From Changpingibacter yushuensis (lineage in GTDB: Bacteria > Actinomycetota > Actinomycetes > Actinomycetales > Actinomycetaceae): a DNA stretch of 64,000 nt. The stretch's first letter is position 1; the number at the start of each line of letters is the position of its first letter. The notes beneath the pieces were generated by a model. That model was not told the DNA's origin, did no database searches, and saw nothing but the letters and a program-made list of their open reading frames with translations. Both the position numbers and the translations under genes were made by a program. This document shows positions 15,610-62,822 of this stretch, piece by piece. Where the stretch lies: NCBI RefSeq assembly GCF_014041995.1, contig NZ_CP059492.1, positions 1,984,001 to 2,048,000 on the forward strand. The letters are read 5' to 3'.

Positions 15610-16511
15610 GGTTCGATGATCACTTTGCCGGCAGTGTGCCCAGCCTCCACCATGGCGACGGCCTCCGCAGCCCGATCGAGACTGTACCGGTCCGTCACCT
15701 GCGGGTCGACGAGACCGTACTGCGCGACGCCGGTGACCTTCTCGAGCCCTTCACGCGTGCGCACCACCGCTACGCCACCGAGTTGCTGCACGGTGGTCGG
15801 GTCTGCGGTACTGATGATGACGCTCGGGTCTTTGGCGACGACCGCGAGATCACGAAGCGCCTGCCCACCGACCAGGTCGATGAGCACATCAACACCCTCC
15901 GGCGCGATGGCACGCACCCGGTCAGCCGCACCCTCCCCGGAGGCAACGAACGCCGCACCGGTCGACTCCACCAGTTCCTGCTTCGCTGCACTGGCCACAC
16001 CGATGACCGTGAACTTGTGCACATTGCCGATCTGCGCCGCCATCAGCCCGACCCCACCTCCGGCGCCAAGAATCAGCATCGCCTGACCAGGTTCCAGCTC
16101 GATCTGATGCGTCACGTCATACGCAGTCGCCCCTGCGACAGGCAGTGCTGCAGCGTCAGCAAAGGAAAGCTCTTCGGGCTTCTGGACGGTTTGTGCCGCA
16201 TCCAACACCGTGTGCTTCGCGAACGTTCCCTGTCCTTTGGCCGCGAGGCCGAGCACCATGTCACCGACAGCGAAGTTCTCGACCTCTGCGCCTACGGCGG
16301 TGACGACACCGGAGGCCTCTCGGCCCATCGGTGCGGGAAGCGGCCAGTGGGAGCCCATCTGCCCCGCACGGATCTTCCAGTCAGCAGGATTCACCCCGGC
16401 CGCTTTCACTTCGATCGCGAGCTCTCCAGGCCCAGGCGCCGGAGCGGGGCGTTCAACGAGTTCCTGCGTCTCGGGGCCGCCATAGGCGGCGAAGACCAGC
16501 GCTTTCGACAT
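15606..16511 (-). CDS. NADP-dependent quinone oxidoreductase (MDR family)
   Basis: 301 residues from ATG 16511. It has VKAAGVNPADWKIRAGQMG near the N-terminus, GVVTAVGAEVENFAVGDMV for the catalytic-domain barrel, and LILGAGGGVGLMAAQIGNV for the NADP-binding fold, typical of zinc-free quinone reductases/crotonyl-CoA-reductase-like MDR enzymes. The first bases of the gene are duplicated by a 45-bp tandem repeat, so a second in-frame ATG with the same ribosome binding site exists at 16556 and would add 15 residues; 16511 matches the usual family start. It is translationally coupled to the downstream methyltransferase gene. Confidence 0.85.
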   Translation of the reverse strand: MSKALVFAAYGGPETQELVERPAPAPGPGELAIEVKAAGVNPADWKIRAGQMGSHWPLPAPMGREASGVVTAVGAEVENFAVGDMVLGLAAKGQGTFAKHTVLDAAQTVQKPEELSFADAAALPVAGATAYDVTHQIELEPGQAMLILGAGGGVGLMAAQIGNVHKFTVIGVASAAKQELVESTGAAFVASGEGAADRVRAIAPEGVDVLIDLVGGQALRDLAVVAKDPSVIISTADPTTVQQLGGVAVVRTREGLEKVTGVAQYGLVDPQVTDRYSLDRAAEAVAMVEAGHTAGKVIIEP

Positions 16512-56667: not shown

Positions 56668-57351
56668 ATGGCAATTGCTGAAACACATGACGTGTACAAA
56701 GACTTCGTTCAGGGTGACGAGACGATTCATGCGCTCAAGCCCACGAACTTCGCAGCAGAACCAGGGCAATTCATCGCACTGATTGGGCCGTCCGGTTCTG
56801 GGAAATCAACGCTGTTGACGCTGTTAGGCGGACTTCAAGCACCCACGGGCGGATCAGTTTTTGTGGATGGCAAAGACCTCGCGTCGATGGATGATAAAGA
56901 ACGCTCACGCACGCGCTTAAGGTCAATTGGATTCATTCTTCAGTCTGCGAACCTCGTGCCGTTTCTGACAGTCAATCAGCAACTCGAGTTGCACGACCGT
57001 GCTGCTGGGAATAGGGCTGCGCGGCAGAAGGATCGCGATGAACTGCTGGATTCGCTTGGGATACTCAAACTAGCTAAGAAGTATCCGCGTGAGCTTTCAG
57101 GCGGCGAGCAACAGCGTGCGGCGATCGCACGTGCACTATATGGCTCCCCCGCGCTGATACTTGCAGACGAACCTACCGCGGCGCTTGACACGAGCCGAGC
57201 GTTTGACGTGGCGGACCTTCTGCGCGAACAGGCCCGCAGCCGTAACACGGCAATCATTATGGTGACCCATGATGAACGGCTTGTGGAGCACGTAGATAGA
57301 GTCTTGCATATCGCCGATGGCGCCCTCGAAGAGGTCACTGGCGGCCGTTAG
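56668..57351 (+). CDS. ABC transporter ATP-binding protein (LolD/DevA type)
   Basis: 227 residues. Walker A LIGPSGSGKSTLLTLLGGLQ, Q-loop IGFILQSANLVPF, signature ELSGGEQQRAAIARALYG, Walker B ALILADEPTAALDTSRAFDV and H-loop VTHDERLVEHVDRVLHIADG are all intact. Strong GGAG ribosome binding site. It is the energising partner of the MacB/FtsX-like permease directly upstream. Substrate unknown; the pair resembles exporters of antimicrobial peptides or lipids in Gram-positives. Confidence 0.93.
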   Translation: MAIAETHDVYKDFVQGDETIHALKPTNFAAEPGQFIALIGPSGSGKSTLLTLLGGLQAPTGGSVFVDGKDLASMDDKERSRTRLRSIGFILQSANLVPFLTVNQQLELHDRAAGNRAARQKDRDELLDSLGILKLAKKYPRELSGGEQQRAAIARALYGSPALILADEPTAALDTSRAFDVADLLREQARSRNTAIIMVTHDERLVEHVDRVLHIADGALEEVTGGR

Positions 57352-57358
57352 GTTGTTG

Positions 57359-57492
57359 CCGCGTGGCAGGTAACGGTGCCCGCCACGCGGCAGATTCGGA
57401 GCTGGTCACGTGGCAGGTGCCGGAGCTATTCGCGTGGCGAAACTGGAGCCGTTCGCGTGGTGAAACTGGAGCCAGTCACGTGGTGAAACTGG
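57359..57492. repeat. Hairpin plus imperfect 23-24-bp tandem repeats after the ABC operon
   Basis: CCGCGTGGC (57359-57367) pairs with GCCACGCGG (57382-57390), a 9-bp stem that may act as terminator. From about 57398 to 57492 the sequence repeats a 23-24-base unit of the type GGAGCyrkTCrCGTGGyGAAACT about four times with small changes; the later three copies share CGTGG(T/C)GAAACTGGA. CACGTGG blocks could form alternative hairpins with one another. Confidence 0.7.
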
Positions 57493-57574
57493 ACGTGCCA
57501 CGGAGGTCTGCCGACGCAGGCTATGCGCATTCCCGCCGGTGGCGGGTACGCACATTCTTGCCGATGCCGGCTAC

Positions 57575-57688
57575 TTAACGCCGATGCCGCATCTCCCGAA
57601 CGAATATCCAGATGAGCCAGAACCCTGCGGTGATGACGGTCATGATGACGTCGCCGAGAAAGCTAAAGAGGCCGTATCGCTTGGCCAT
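57575..57688 (-). CDS. Small membrane protein (37 residues)
   Basis: Too short for usual ORF calling. From ATG 57688 the protein begins MAKRYGLFSFLGDVIMTVIT and ends AGFWLIWIFVREMRHRR, with a GAAAGG ribosome binding site nine bases upstream. One hydrophobic helix followed by a strongly basic tail. Tiny proteins with the pattern KYG...DxxxTxxTxGxWLIWxxxRExR occur in many Gram-positives next to unrelated genes and are usually left unannotated. Role unknown; a membrane-associated regulatory or type I toxin-like peptide is conceivable. The conserved GFWLIWxxxRE shape and good ribosome binding site support translation. Confidence 0.65.
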   Translation of the reverse strand: MAKRYGLFSFLGDVIMTVITAGFWLIWIFVREMRHRR

Positions 57689-58174
57689 GGCCGTGCCTTT
57701 CGTTCAGTTAGTATCGTGGTCCCCCAAGCCTACTAGCCTCTAGGCTGCGTCTGCGGTGCATTACTCTTTGAGCGCCGTTCAGTCGGATCTAAGGGCATTC
57801 ATCGTTCAGCGGTTCGAATGACGATTAAGCGAAGGGCTTCCGGAGAACTGCATGTACCGCCGGGCTGAGGCAGTGCAGGCTGCTGCGCGCGGCCAGATCT
57901 CGGGATCACACAGTAGATATGAGAGTCAATCTAGACCCGGACCATATCTGGCCCAAAGCAGCCGTGGGCCTAAATCATCCTTTGATCTGCGGGAGAAGAC
58001 CTATCGCCATGGCGTTCCATGATCGCCCGTCAGAGGAGCGAATTCACCTTCTGTCCTGGACAGACCAAGATCAACCGCTTCGCTCGGTCAAGAGTGAATC
58101 TGTAACTAACCGAAGGTGAACCCAAATGCGAGGACGCAGCGCGACGTGCGTGCTCCTCTCTTGAAGCTGGACCA
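57689..58174. other. Non-coding stretch left of the CRISPR remnant
   Basis: No protein-like frame on either strand; short open frames here have no ribosome binding site or family pattern. It is likely the decayed distal part of a former CRISPR-cas locus, since the array's oldest repeat lies at its right edge. Confidence 0.4.
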
Positions 58175-58325
58175 TGGATGGCCTTACGTGTCCGTGAAAC
58201 ATGTGTAGGAGCCGAGCCCGGGGTCGGTAACGGCAAGAATGCGCCCGCGTGCGCGGGGAACGGTGAGTCGGCAGAGCGATTCACTCGTAATGAATAGGAA
58301 TACCCCCGCGTGCGCGGGGAGCGGA
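58175..58325 (-). CRISPR. Degenerate type I-E-like CRISPR, three repeats of 61-bp period
   Basis: Repeats at 58297-58325 and 58236-58264 share GAAT, CCCGCGTGCGCGGGGA and CGG. On the minus strand this is the actinobacterial type I-E form CTCCCCGCGCACGCGGGG. Exactly 61 bases further left (58175-58203) a much decayed copy keeps ACGTGtcCGtGaaAC. 29-nt repeats plus 32-nt spacers is the type I-E geometry. The decayed end is the leader-distal end, so the leader should lie at the right, towards cas5e. Spacers about 58204-58235 and 58265-58296. Confidence 0.65.
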
Positions 58326-58436
58326 CTAATGGCCCTCGCCTCTCTCTACAGAGCTTCCCCATTCTGTGCAGCTTGCCGACGAGGAATCAACCGAATGCCG
58401 TCAAAGTCGTAGACCGTCGGTGCACCTTGCCCATAC

Positions 58437-59180
58437 GTGCGTATGGCGCCAATGGCTGAGTCTCTCTATCTCAGATTGGCTGGCCCACTTCAATCATGGG
58501 CTGGCCCTAGAGTCACTGGAAACGTGGTGAGAACTGAGGCACGACCTACGAGGAGTGGACTGGAAGGTCTGCTGGCGGCGGCAATGGGATGGCGTCGTGG
58601 CGAGTGGGAAGAATGGATCCGGGATACGAGCATCTCAGTGCGTTCCGATCGTCTCGGAAATCGTGTTGACGAGTTTCAGACGATCAATCCCCGCGACGAG
58701 GATCTCGAGTACCAAGAACGCGCCTATCTGCTAATGACAGGAAGGAGGTGGAGCAAGAGAGCGAACTTCACGCCTGATGGCCAGAACAAGACGTCAATCG
58801 TGAACCGCACATATATTGCCGATGCCGTTTTTCTCGTGGAAGTCTCAGATGGAACAAGACTCGAGCAAATCAAAAGCGCATTGAGAAAGCCACAGTTCAC
58901 TTCCTATTTAGGCCGGAAGGCATTTGCACCCACCTTTCCCTTCTTCTTGGGGGTAGGCCCGGAAGGAGCGCTCAAGGACCTTCCAACTGTCAAACAGACG
59001 GCCAGAGCAGTCCAGCTCTCCAACGACTACTTCGATGCGTTAGCTGGCCCCGAACGCCCACAGCTGAGAATCGACCATCTCGGCTGCACGGGAACGCACT
59101 CCCCTGAGTTCGTGAATGTGGAAGCGTTACCACAAAATGATTGGATCAAGTTGATCTCGGATACATTCGACCGCACGTGA
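58437..59180 (+). CDS. cas5e: Orphan type I-E Cascade subunit Cas5e (CasD)
   Basis: 247 residues from GTG 58437; ATG 58443 and ATG 58452 are also in frame and the last fits the family start. N-terminal LYLRLAGPLQSWAGP and TEARPTRSGLEGLLAAAMGW (the Cas5 RAMP signature where the CRISPR 5' handle and Cas7 bind), TFPFFLGVGPEGALKDL, and a conserved DQNKTSIVNRTYIADAVFL-like stretch match Cas5e/CasD. The size is normal and the frame intact. No cas3, cse1, cse2, cas7, cas6e, cas1 or cas2 gene is in the window, and the array on its left is degenerate. It may be a dying remnant, or retained for another purpose. Confidence 0.82.
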   Translation: MRMAPMAESLYLRLAGPLQSWAGPRVTGNVVRTEARPTRSGLEGLLAAAMGWRRGEWEEWIRDTSISVRSDRLGNRVDEFQTINPRDEDLEYQERAYLLMTGRRWSKRANFTPDGQNKTSIVNRTYIADAVFLVEVSDGTRLEQIKSALRKPQFTSYLGRKAFAPTFPFFLGVGPEGALKDLPTVKQTARAVQLSNDYFDALAGPERPQLRIDHLGCTGTHSPEFVNVEALPQNDWIKLISDTFDRT

Positions 59181-59293
59181 GTCTTGTGACCGTGTGATGG
59201 TCCGAGCCAACGTTTACGAGGCCCACATGAGCGGAGAAATGTTCGAAACGCCCGGACCATGATCAGAATGGACAGATGTTCAACACTAAGTAC

Positions 59294-59335
59294 AAGGATG
59301 CCGGGTGGCAGTTTTCACTGCCACCCGGCATCCTT
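59294..59335. terminator. Bidirectional terminator between cas5e and PEPCK
   Basis: AAGGATGCCGGGTGGCAG-ttttca-CTGCCACCCGGCATCCTT, an 18-bp perfect stem with the TTTTCA loop seen in other hairpins here. It separates the two convergent genes. A plus-strand frame across it (59276-59560) is not a gene. Confidence 0.92.
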
Positions 59336-59444
59336 TACGTCAGGGGCAAGAAGACACCGGCAAACCCAATTGACCTGAGCCTTGGATCGGCCCCAATTGA
59401 GTCCGGCGAGCCGCTTGCCTACACCGAGCTAGGCGCCCAGTTGC

Positions 59445-62400
59445 TCAGCGGGCATCCCACGTTACCTGGCGGCCCAGCGTGCCACTCAGTTCCTCCAGCG
59501 GAGCCTCACGCAGCCGATCACGTTCGGCCACAAGACGAGCCTTTCGATCAGCTAGATTGAGGCGTCGCTTAGCGGCGTCACCTTGCGGCCGATTAAGGAA
59601 GTCCTCCAGCGCAGCCACTTCACGCTCTGCGAACGATATCTGCGAGGCTCGCTGTGCTTCGAGGCGTTCCCTGTACCAGTCGGAGGCGAGTACATTTTCC
59701 CGCCCAAACATGCCACGGAACTCCTCGTCGGCCAGCGTCCAACCCTCAGATGAATGGCCATTCGCCATGATCTCAAGCAACGCCCTGATCGGGGGAACGC
59801 CCAGCGGCAAGGTGCCGTCGTCGATATATGACTGAGCCACACGCCTATGAGTCTCCACAATCGTGGCCACCGATTCCGCATACACCGCTTCATCCTGAAG
59901 CTCAGGCCGCAGCATCTCCTGCGTAAACACTAGATGCGGATGTAGGAAGATACGTCCAAAGTACTTTGTGGCGAAGCGCTTGGTCATGCGATAGCCCAAG
60001 CGGCTGGCTTCCACCAGCTTGCCGTCCACCATCAGATCAGCCACCGGCTCCAGCGAGCCCTCCGCAAGAAGATTCTTTGCAGAGCGTTCCTCCGAAGACA
60101 TTCGCGAGAATACTTCCGGAATCAACATGCTGATGTCGTGATCAACGCGCACCTGCGGCCCCACATAGCCAGCCGAAGAAAGCCAGCCGTCATACCCGGT
60201 TAGCGCGAAGGACAAGAATGCAGCATTGAGATCCACAATGGAGGGCAACGCATTGAACGGCCCCTTGGTCATCGCGCCCTCAGATCCGGCACCAGTGGTC
60301 GATGGCGACTTGCCTGTCATCGAACTGATGAACTCCATGAACAGCTCAGGAAGCTCCATGTAATGCAACGGAGCGTATGAAGCAAGTGGTGGTACGCCGT
60401 CGTCGGCAGGATTATTACGACGGCCGGCAGCGATCACATCAACAGGTGATTCGAACGGCGTTGCCATTGAGATCCGCGCATGAATACGGGACGCAAGATC
60501 TGCACTCGCCGTTGCCTCCGGATGCGAAATATCCGGGCGGATCTGCAGGTAGCGGGGATTCTTTGAAGGCTTGCCACCAACAAGGCGAGGATGCGCCGAA
60601 GAGACCACATAGCCCGCTTGATCAGTATCACCAAATGCGGCCTTGCGAATGACGTCCTGCATAGGTTCGGTGTAGCTGCTGAATCCAACAGCATCCTCAA
60701 CCAGTGCAACGGCCTGTTCCCGTGAAAGCGGCTCGTAGTTACTCAGGAACGTATCCGGCCCTGCGATATCCTTCTCCGCCTGCTTGTCATAGCCGCGGTG
60801 AATCGCCTCGTCTGGGCGCTGGAAAAGCAACTCCTCGCAGTTACGAACGTACTTGCGTGAGAGCCCGCCATCCTTGCCTGGAGCAACGATGCTCGCCGTG
60901 ATGTCATCCTCCGTCTGAACCTTCGCGGCTGGGTGAAAGTCATGGCGCAAGCCAAAAAGCCGCCACGATCCATCGGGTTCATAACCCACGCGAAGCATTG
61001 AGACTCGAATCTTGTCCCCATCAAGGCGAAGGGAGGTGCCCTTGCGGCCATTAACCACGCCAGTTGTGAAGTGGCTCAGCCAATCTTCACCCCATTCTGG
61101 CTGATAGAAACGCTTGACGATAAACACCAGTTCCCTGATGTAATCCGGGATGGAATCCAGCCACGCATTGTATTCGTCCGTGTAATCCGAGCTGGGCGTC
61201 AACAGCTTGATAACTGAACCCACAGAACGACGATCGGAGAGAATCCTCCGGCTGTTCTGACTGACGTTCGCCGGATCAACAAATCGATACTGGAAATCGC
61301 GAGCGAGGATTTCTCCAACTTCCTTCATATCAGCATCGAAGTTTGCTGAGTAGGCATCGCCATTAATGACTGCATCGGAGATCGCCTTGGAAATCTCCGA
61401 CTTCCCACCACCTGAGACCGTTGCCGGCTTATGGCACGTGGTCGCTTCTGGCGCGGTGCCGATCAGCGTCCACTGCGAGGGATCATTCTCAAGCTGAGCG
61501 AGATGGACTTGATAACCATCAGGAAGCACATAGGCCGTGCCGTTGTGAAGCGGCACAGAGTGCTTTGCTCCGTTGATCTTCCACGAAACAGTGCTGGTGC
61601 GAAGGCTGAAAGTGGTGCCTGCTGGCACGAAAACGTTGTTCTTGTTCTCGAGATCCAACAGGTAGCCGTCGGCTTGCGGCACGAAGCGTTGCGGATCCCG
61701 TTCTACGATCTCCGCAAGCGTGTAGCTCGCATCGCAATGTGATTCCGTGTAGTGCTGGCCCAAGTTGTACTGCGGATAAACTCGAGCGCCGCCAGCATGT
61801 TCCTCTTCGACCAAACCAAAGAGATTTGCCGAATAGCTAATCTGTGCCTTAACTTCCTTCTTGCAATAGCCGAAGTAGTTATCCGCGATAACCGTAGTAA
61901 TGACACCACGCTCATCACGAGCACAACACTTGAAAGCGCCACCGTTGTTATACAGCTCGTTCGGATCAGACCAACACTGACCATCGCGACGCTGGCGCTC
62001 TGTGGCGTCGTCGTAATGAGGAAGGCCGAGTTCCTTCTTCGTGAGCTTGGTGAGATGCGGTGCCAAAACGACGAGTCCCGTATGCCCAGTCCACGCCTCC
62101 GGATCCAAGGAAGCATCGAAATCTGGCAGGTACGGATCCCCGCCGTTTCCGAAGATACCCTCAACGAAATCGAGATTTGCAACCAGTGTTCCTGGTGCAA
62201 AGAAACGAGTTTCCATCGAACGTTGACGGCTAAATCCGGGAACTCCTGGGACGACGACGGGGCGCAGCAACAGAGATACCCAGCAGCCAACGGGATGATC
62301 AGTGCCCGCGGTATATGGCAAGGTGAGCGCATCTTCCGGTGGTTGGAAAGCGTGCTCGAGAAGGCGTCCAAACACCTCGCGCGGCACCTCGATCTTGTCA

Positions 62401-62822
62401 TCTTGCACGGGTAGACCACCGTCAGCGATGTGGAATACACCCTTGGTCGTGCGCCGGTCATTGGCCGGATTGTGCAAAACTCCATTGAGAATCCGGTAAC
62501 TAGTCAGATGTTCTGACGTGAAGGAATCACCATTGAGTGGAAGCGAAAGCGTACGGGAGAGCCCGCGCTGATCGAGCACAAAGGTCTCACGCGGGAGCTT
62601 CGGAGCAGCTCCAGTCCCCTCTAGGTAAGAATCCAAGAATGCTTGGATGCGTGAATCCGCGGCGGGCAGGCGATGCGCAAGCCGGCGATCCAGTTCGCGC
62701 TGACGCGCGATGATCGGTTCGACTAAGTGAGTCGCATCGGCACCCTGAGTTCCGCTCGGCACTGGAAGGCCAAGCAGTTCGAGGCGAAGGTTTACAGCGG
62801 CGATGTCCAAATTGTTGTCCAC
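59445..62822 (-). CDS. Probable PPi-type phosphoenolpyruvate carboxykinase
   Basis: 1125 residues, no signal or membrane helix. Size and motifs fit the PPi-PEPCK family known from Propionibacterium and Entamoeba: NNGGAFKCCARDERGVITTV, IADNYFGYCKKEVKAQISYS (about 292-330) resemble the PEPCK active-site core, and ATVSGGGKSEISKAISDAVI (about 468-487) is a Gly-rich nucleotide/phosphate-loop-like motif. The enzyme interconverts oxaloacetate + PPi and PEP + CO2 + Pi, a switch between glycolysis and C4 acids that needs no nucleotide. Most homologues carry no functional name, so the assignment is from recalled family features. The last about 90 residues are coiled coil. Own terminator downstream. Confidence 0.68.
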   Translation of the reverse strand: MDNNLDIAAVNLRLELLGLPVPSGTQGADATHLVEPIIARQRELDRRLAHRLPAADSRIQAFLDSYLEGTGAAPKLPRETFVLDQRGLSRTLSLPLNGDSFTSEHLTSYRILNGVLHNPANDRRTTKGVFHIADGGLPVQDDKIEVPREVFGRLLEHAFQPPEDALTLPYTAGTDHPVGCWVSLLLRPVVVPGVPGFSRQRSMETRFFAPGTLVANLDFVEGIFGNGGDPYLPDFDASLDPEAWTGHTGLVVLAPHLTKLTKKELGLPHYDDATERQRRDGQCWSDPNELYNNGGAFKCCARDERGVITTVIADNYFGYCKKEVKAQISYSANLFGLVEEEHAGGARVYPQYNLGQHYTESHCDASYTLAEIVERDPQRFVPQADGYLLDLENKNNVFVPAGTTFSLRTSTVSWKINGAKHSVPLHNGTAYVLPDGYQVHLAQLENDPSQWTLIGTAPEATTCHKPATVSGGGKSEISKAISDAVINGDAYSANFDADMKEVGEILARDFQYRFVDPANVSQNSRRILSDRRSVGSVIKLLTPSSDYTDEYNAWLDSIPDYIRELVFIVKRFYQPEWGEDWLSHFTTGVVNGRKGTSLRLDGDKIRVSMLRVGYEPDGSWRLFGLRHDFHPAAKVQTEDDITASIVAPGKDGGLSRKYVRNCEELLFQRPDEAIHRGYDKQAEKDIAGPDTFLSNYEPLSREQAVALVEDAVGFSSYTEPMQDVIRKAAFGDTDQAGYVVSSAHPRLVGGKPSKNPRYLQIRPDISHPEATASADLASRIHARISMATPFESPVDVIAAGRRNNPADDGVPPLASYAPLHYMELPELFMEFISSMTGKSPSTTGAGSEGAMTKGPFNALPSIVDLNAAFLSFALTGYDGWLSSAGYVGPQVRVDHDISMLIPEVFSRMSSEERSAKNLLAEGSLEPVADLMVDGKLVEASRLGYRMTKRFATKYFGRIFLHPHLVFTQEMLRPELQDEAVYAESVATIVETHRRVAQSYIDDGTLPLGVPPIRALLEIMANGHSSEGWTLADEEFRGMFGRENVLASDWYRERLEAQRASQISFAEREVAALEDFLNRPQGDAAKRRLNLADRKARLVAERDRLREAPLEELSGTLGRQVTWDAR

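Follow-up and report, generated by a model that had tools for sequence, protein, structure and literature searches.

An intact cas5e gene beside a CRISPR array remnant in Changpingibacter yushuensis: the probable relic of a type I-E locus

How does a full-length cas5e gene come to stand next to a CRISPR (clustered regularly interspaced short palindromic repeats) array of two or three repeats, and does its intactness point to a new use? The question is raised by a locus at positions 58175-59180 of a 64,000-nucleotide stretch of Changpingibacter yushuensis DNA, referred to here as the window, which corresponds to bases 1984001-2048000 of a genome consisting of a single contig of 2.66 Mb. The original prediction for this locus described an orphan cas5e beside a relic array, named recent decay as the simpler reading, and raised a new use of the protein as a possibility. 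The analysis described here favors decay. With a probability of roughly 0.88, the locus is what an internal deletion has left of a type I-E CRISPR-Cas system whose clade occurs in Actinomycetaceae, Rothia, and Corynebacterium. It resembles a standard locus that has lost its middle and kept both ends, and no other type I-E gene set was found in the genome; both the orphan status of cas5e and the preference for recent decay are thus upheld.

The two remaining ends

The cas5e (casD) gene occupies positions 58452-59180 on the plus strand and encodes 242 amino acids, as indicated by family models, alignment with relatives, and the predicted fold. Three starts are possible (GTG at 58437, ATG at 58443, and ATG at 58452), and the alignment of relatives points to the last of them. 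The frame is open throughout 58437-59180, with no internal stop. Its product scores 109.6 bits with TIGR01868 (casD_Cas5e; cut-off 68.95, E value 1.8e-31) and matches PF09704 with an E value of 1.9e-28; the gene is therefore full-length and uninterrupted, as had been claimed for it. Six solved sequences are matched by the product, five of them named Cas5e or CasD and one unnamed. The AlphaFold2 model has a mean predicted local distance difference test (pLDDT) score of 76.9, with residues 13-23, 104-112, 151-160, and 194-197 below 50, and its top structural match is chain 6c66_M of a Cascade (E 1.2e-12, template modeling score 0.62). With the curated cut-off exceeded and a Cas5 fold, the protein belongs to the Cas5e (CasD) family.

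The other end is formed by two repeats. Repeat r2 (58297-58324), on the leader side, is placed on the minus strand by comparison with relatives. Repeat r1 (58236-58263, minus strand), which is recognized by pair identity and spacing, is leader-distal and altered at its 3' end; terminal CRISPR repeats are often altered. The two repeats are identical at 24/28 positions and lie at a spacing of 61 bp, at which they form the best pair in the window, and their 16-base core, with at most one mismatch allowed, occurs at only these two sites in the whole genome. The repeat consensus of related arrays, for example CTCTTCCCCGCACACGCGGGGGTATTTCC, is close to both. The minus-strand hairpins of r2 (-13.9 kcal/mol, z-score -1.62) and r1 (-10.4 kcal/mol, z-score -1.19) are not unusual compared with shuffled sequences. 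Palindromic and spaced by 61 bp, r1 and r2 together with the one spacer between them are a remnant of a type I-E CRISPR array.

The array had been described as two good repeats and one poor one at 61-bp spacing, enclosing two spacers. The two good repeats are borne out. The third, a strongly degenerate stretch at 58175-58202 on the minus strand, is a plausible but unproven repeat: it agrees with r1 at 15/28 positions and with r2 at 14/28, levels reached by 0.34% and 0.88% of the 28-mers of the window, respectively, and it folds weakly (z-score -0.29). No repeat was found 61 bp to the right of r2 (9/28). Consequently, only one spacer is bounded by two good repeats, and the second is not so bounded. 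The stretches 58203-58235 and 58325-58357, which could represent further spacers, gave no match in phage records.

The missing middle

The claim that the other type I-E genes are absent from the window holds: when all eight Cas proteins from two relatives were used as tblastn queries, cas5e was the only match there, apart from a weak hit at 1117-878 (E 0.018) that was taken as chance. The genome-wide check for other cas genes that had been proposed gave the same picture. Neither Cas1, Cas7e, Cas8e, nor Cas6e was found in whole-genome searches, and the genome holds a single Cas5. The Cas3 core model gave five matches of 24-43 bits, all below its cut-off of 102; a relative's Cas3 scores 176 bits with the same model. 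Cas11e and Cas2 were not found in a search confined to the window. Since the Pfam models do detect Cas7e, Cas8e, and Cas6e of a related locus, the genome-wide negatives carry weight, although less so for Cas8e.

What is missing can be read from related loci. A search for Cas5e in 213 genomes of the family gave matches in 96, own genome included. The closest set comprises 21 genomes besides the own one, with Cas5e proteins only 42-55% identical to that of the window, a distance at which synonymous sites would be saturated; 20 of these loci were fetched, and one on a 3.5-kb contig (G073) was omitted. The gene order in these relatives is array-cas2-cas1-cas3-cas6e, divergent from cas8e-cas11e-cas7e-cas5e, and all eight cas genes are present in 17 of the 20. 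The same eight are found in 16 of the best 23 of 80 named loci, a second set that partly covers the same genomes, a few of them in another order. In 14 of the 20 fetched loci, the array lies upstream of cas2, with 7,584-8,578 bp from the last repeat to cas5e; in L041, an upstream array is present though missed by the array pattern. Two loci of the same genus group (L042 and L043) carry the array downstream of cas5e and not beside cas2, and no array was seen in the fetched stretches of L050 and L052.

The three incomplete loci differ from one another. L045 is without cas2 and has a partial cas1. L049 (9371-16500) is a rearranged locus in which the four effector genes persist and a long array adjoins cas8e, with a few repeats in the opposite orientation at 16235-16505; cas1, cas3, and cas6e were not found in its fetched stretch, and cas2 only as a short match. 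The contig of L050 begins inside cas8e, and its cas5e has an early stop after about 20 residues (L050/L101).

Compared with this clade, the window locus shares the Cas5e lineage, the repeat family, the 61-bp period, and the order of array and cas5e, but it lacks seven of the eight cas genes and the leader, and only two or three repeats are left. Both ends of the relatives' locus are retained, only 127 bp apart, and their order and orientation are unchanged. This scar region (58325-58451, between r2 and cas5e) contains no recognizable leader, cas2, or cas7 sequence; compared with the loci of five relatives, its forward and reverse scores fall within the range of 60 shuffles each. In most relatives, the start of cas5e coincides with the end of cas7 or is only a few bases from it, frequently in the form ATGA, and this close or overlapping junction is gone in the window. 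A KVVD peptide in the junction resembles the end of the relatives' Cas7, but its frame differs and its position is further upstream, and the resemblance was regarded as chance. The leader of type I-E systems lies on the cas2 side of the array. Because the leader should sit on that side, it would have been lost as well.

The following history is proposed for the locus. One internal deletion of about 8 kb, or several within the same stretch, would have eliminated seven genes (cas2, cas1, cas3, cas6e, cas8e, cas11e, and cas7e) together with the leader end of the array, leaving the leader-distal end of the array beside cas5e, the last gene of the effector operon. The deletion would have occurred once and recently, and the remnant, having no leader, Cas6e, Cascade, or Cas3, would now do nothing. 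Orphan and isolated CRISPR and cas remnants have been read as leftovers of lost systems or as parts working with distant partners (PMC5294841). These remnants are cas genes or arrays without partners, as in the window; the survey's tally of cas loci was limited to those with at least three genes, as opposed to a single cas gene and a mini-array here.

Several points weigh against this history. A junction with no leftover of cas7 or cas2 may reflect a more complex course of events, and with no recognizable similarity to relatives, the breakpoints are not pinned. The deletion is inferred from other genera rather than from a full locus in the same species. The absence of Cas8e is a weaker negative than the others, as this protein is divergent among the relatives (62-72 bits in Pfam; the Cas8e of L036 has no NCBIfam match). 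Finally, an intact gene after the loss of its partners is also what retained function would lead one to expect.

The genus mates add limited detail. The type I-E system of G092 (L055) is a different and distant one, and G093 and G094 gave no Cas5e match. The gene next to cas5e (59445-62822, minus strand) encodes a protein of 1125 amino acids with an 82% identical counterpart in G094, no match in G092 or G093, and no Pfam or NCBIfam match at an E value of 0.001. The DNA similarity to G094 ends with this gene, so the site as it was before the deletion could not be seen there. Between cas5e and this convergent gene lies a perfect inverted repeat (59294-59335; 19-bp arms, 4-base loop), perhaps a two-way terminator; the terminator scan did not list it. 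On the far side of the array, short tandem repeats of about 23 bp (57398-57497) follow an ABC transporter gene.

The spacer and the tRNA-Thr(CGT) gene

The firmly bounded spacer (58264-58296, minus strand, 33 nt) adds a point beyond the original prediction: it is identical at 32/33 positions to the transfer RNA (tRNA) gene tRNA-Thr(CGT) of its own genome. This gene lies near 227.46 kb; assuming a circular contig, its distance from the spacer is about 847 kb. It holds an exact 33-base segment composed of 31 spacer bases and the GG of the repeat, and 32 of the 33 spacer bases match once the remaining two are counted. The CRISPR RNA (crRNA) strand is antisense to the tRNA, and the spacer spans the region from the D-arm to the anticodon stem. 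The same segment is present in tRNA-Thr(CGT) of all three genus mates. The match stands out among related arrays: the spacer has a run of 31 bases in common with this tRNA, compared with 11 for the best of 258 distinct spacers (277 extracted from 16 related arrays), none of which contains a T-arm motif. With a near-full match to its own chromosome outside arrays, the spacer is, by sequence, a candidate self-targeting spacer. Searches of an open library with exact phrases yielded no recognized report of self-targeting spacers directed at tRNA genes.

The flank of the target on the side of the protospacer-adjacent motif (PAM) is ACC in the own genome and in 3/3 genus mates. The type I-E PAM of E. 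coli is AAG. When the PAM of the clade was sought by comparing five related arrays with phage records, no protospacer was recognized: one array had no match, and four had weak matches of 69-75% identity, which are probably other arrays.

The match can be viewed in two ways, neither of which reaches an even chance. The spacer may derive from a mobile element, either a phage or an integrating element, on which tRNA-Thr or its attachment site was present as a copy, so that the match to the own gene would be a by-product; this origin falls only somewhat short of being probable. The same 33 bases are found in five IMG/VR contigs, in four of which ARAGORN calls tRNA-Thr(CGT), while on the fifth the sequence is truncated where the contig ends; the tRNA on these contigs may, however, be host flank. 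The comparison with phages that had been suggested for both spacers gave matches for this one only: 16 of the 20 records listed have an annotated tRNA-Thr or tRNA-Asn at the match, all of them weak. Among plasmids, a Monoglobus record gives the best match, with 96.8% identity across 31 bases; the table for that search contains no RNA genes. In L080 and L081, the two contigs of which a neighboring gene was tested, a phage integrase gene lies 77 bp from tRNA-Thr(CGT), and the tRNA gene appears to serve there as a phage attachment site. A comparable arrangement is described for the haloviruses HF1 and HF2, in which a truncated tRNA-Thr gene lies near an integrase gene (PMC3119063).

The position of the match within the tRNA speaks against such an origin. 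In attachment sites, it is usually the 3' part of the tRNA that is included, whereas the spacer covers the D-arm to the anticodon stem. Moreover, no integrase was found among the eight proteins scanned beside the own tRNA-Thr, two of which were without any match. On one side of this tRNA lie genes for a topoisomerase, a thymidylate kinase, a DNA polymerase III delta-type protein, and a hydrolase; a frame about 6 kb away resembles a Mutator-type transposase.

The second possibility is that the spacer caused the loss: targeting of the own tRNA-Thr(CGT) would have made the system toxic, and the survivors would have deleted the cas genes. This proposal adds a cause to the deletion model and does not replace it, and it is put forward only tentatively, as the odds are clearly against it. 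In its favor, nearly all bases of the one firm spacer are found in the own tRNA gene, with a shared run so much longer than in related arrays. There are also precedents in the literature. CRISPR self-targeting is toxic, and mutation of cas genes is one escape route among others (PMC3630108). In a review, Lactobacillus acidophilus with self-targeting spacers is described as having apparently lost its whole cas cassette (PMC6990116); a study of Methylococcus suggests likewise, for one strain, a deletion of the cas cassette together with self-targeting (PMC12924245); and Listeria strains without cas genes carry self-targeting spacers (PMC3886909). The cases of PMC6990116, PMC3630108, and PMC3886909 resemble the window locus in having a spacer against the own chromosome and no working cas set; here, by contrast, the target is a tRNA gene and the case is known from sequence alone. 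Against the proposal stand the ACC flank, which differs from the E. coli motif and is unproven as a functional PAM, and the position of the spacer at the older, leader-distal end of the array. The other spacers of the array are gone and thus beyond judgment.

The intactness of cas5e and readings of new function

The deletion model has to account for a gene that has not decayed. In an alignment with 19 relatives, from which L050 was excluded owing to the stop in its cas5e, the protein retains 31 of 32 columns that are otherwise invariant. In the tree, it pairs with the Cas5e of L034, from a complete 8/8 locus, with support of 99/98, although the program dropped L095 and warned that long rows, L034 among them, are placed with uncertainty. 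The window protein has a branch of 0.65, compared with 1.44 for L034, and no acceleration is seen. In a neutral simulation with substitutions only, a gene free of stops and altered in no more than one of the 32 invariant columns was retained with a probability of 0.63 at 0.01 substitutions per site; at 0.03 and 0.05, the probability fell to 0.165 and 0.035, respectively. The gene may thus be intact because the deletion is young or because it is under constraint, and the data fit both. Because a young deletion predicts this degree of intactness, no extra assumption is needed to explain it.

The new use of Cas5e that the original prediction had raised, for example in RNA binding or as a decoy, has accordingly gained no positive support and is considered very unlikely. 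The fully open frame, the 31 of 32 conserved columns, the unaccelerated branch, and a predicted fold that resembles solved Cas5e structures would all suit such a role, but a young deletion predicts the same intactness. Moreover, scans for sigma-70-like promoters found none in 57340-59450 (shuffle mean 0.9), although such consensus scans miss other promoter types; no Shine-Dalgarno sequence is evident ahead of cas5e; and the junction with cas7 has been lost. A locus with cas5e as its only cas gene was found neither among the 20 fetched relatives nor among the best 23 of the 80 named loci.

Even less probable is the idea that the two-repeat unit is an exapted guide, comparable to CreTA or to the homing guides of CRISPR-associated transposons. 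The nearest functional analogues of the unit would be delocalized crRNAs that match tRNA genes and two-repeat creA genes. The creA genes are units of two repeats, which are degenerate (PMC8501985), and the delocalized crRNA of CRISPR-associated transposons is a guide-like unit matching a tRNA gene, as here (PMC8730458). Both systems require an effector, however, and no Cascade was found in the genome. In CreTA, Cascade represses an adjacent toxin RNA gene; such an RNA was not itself searched for. No Tn7-like gene was found among nine window proteins scanned (44-64 kb) or the eight beside the tRNA, TniQ had no genome-wide match, though the controls of that search were equally silent, and the target would lie hundreds of kilobases away. 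The repeats, alike at 24/28 positions, are also placed where the end of an array is expected. A minus-strand RNA antisense to 32 bases of tRNA-Thr(CGT), including the anticodon, which Cas5e would bind and which would thereby tune the amount or use of this tRNA, is highly improbable.

Relic of a type I-E locus thus remains the preferred reading, and it carries three implications. The locus shows how a CRISPR system can vanish, both of its ends being kept and the missing middle being readable from relatives. It also serves as a warning that an intact orphan cas gene is, on its own, no evidence of a new function. Finally, the surviving spacer offers a testable cause for the loss, namely, self-targeting of a tRNA gene.
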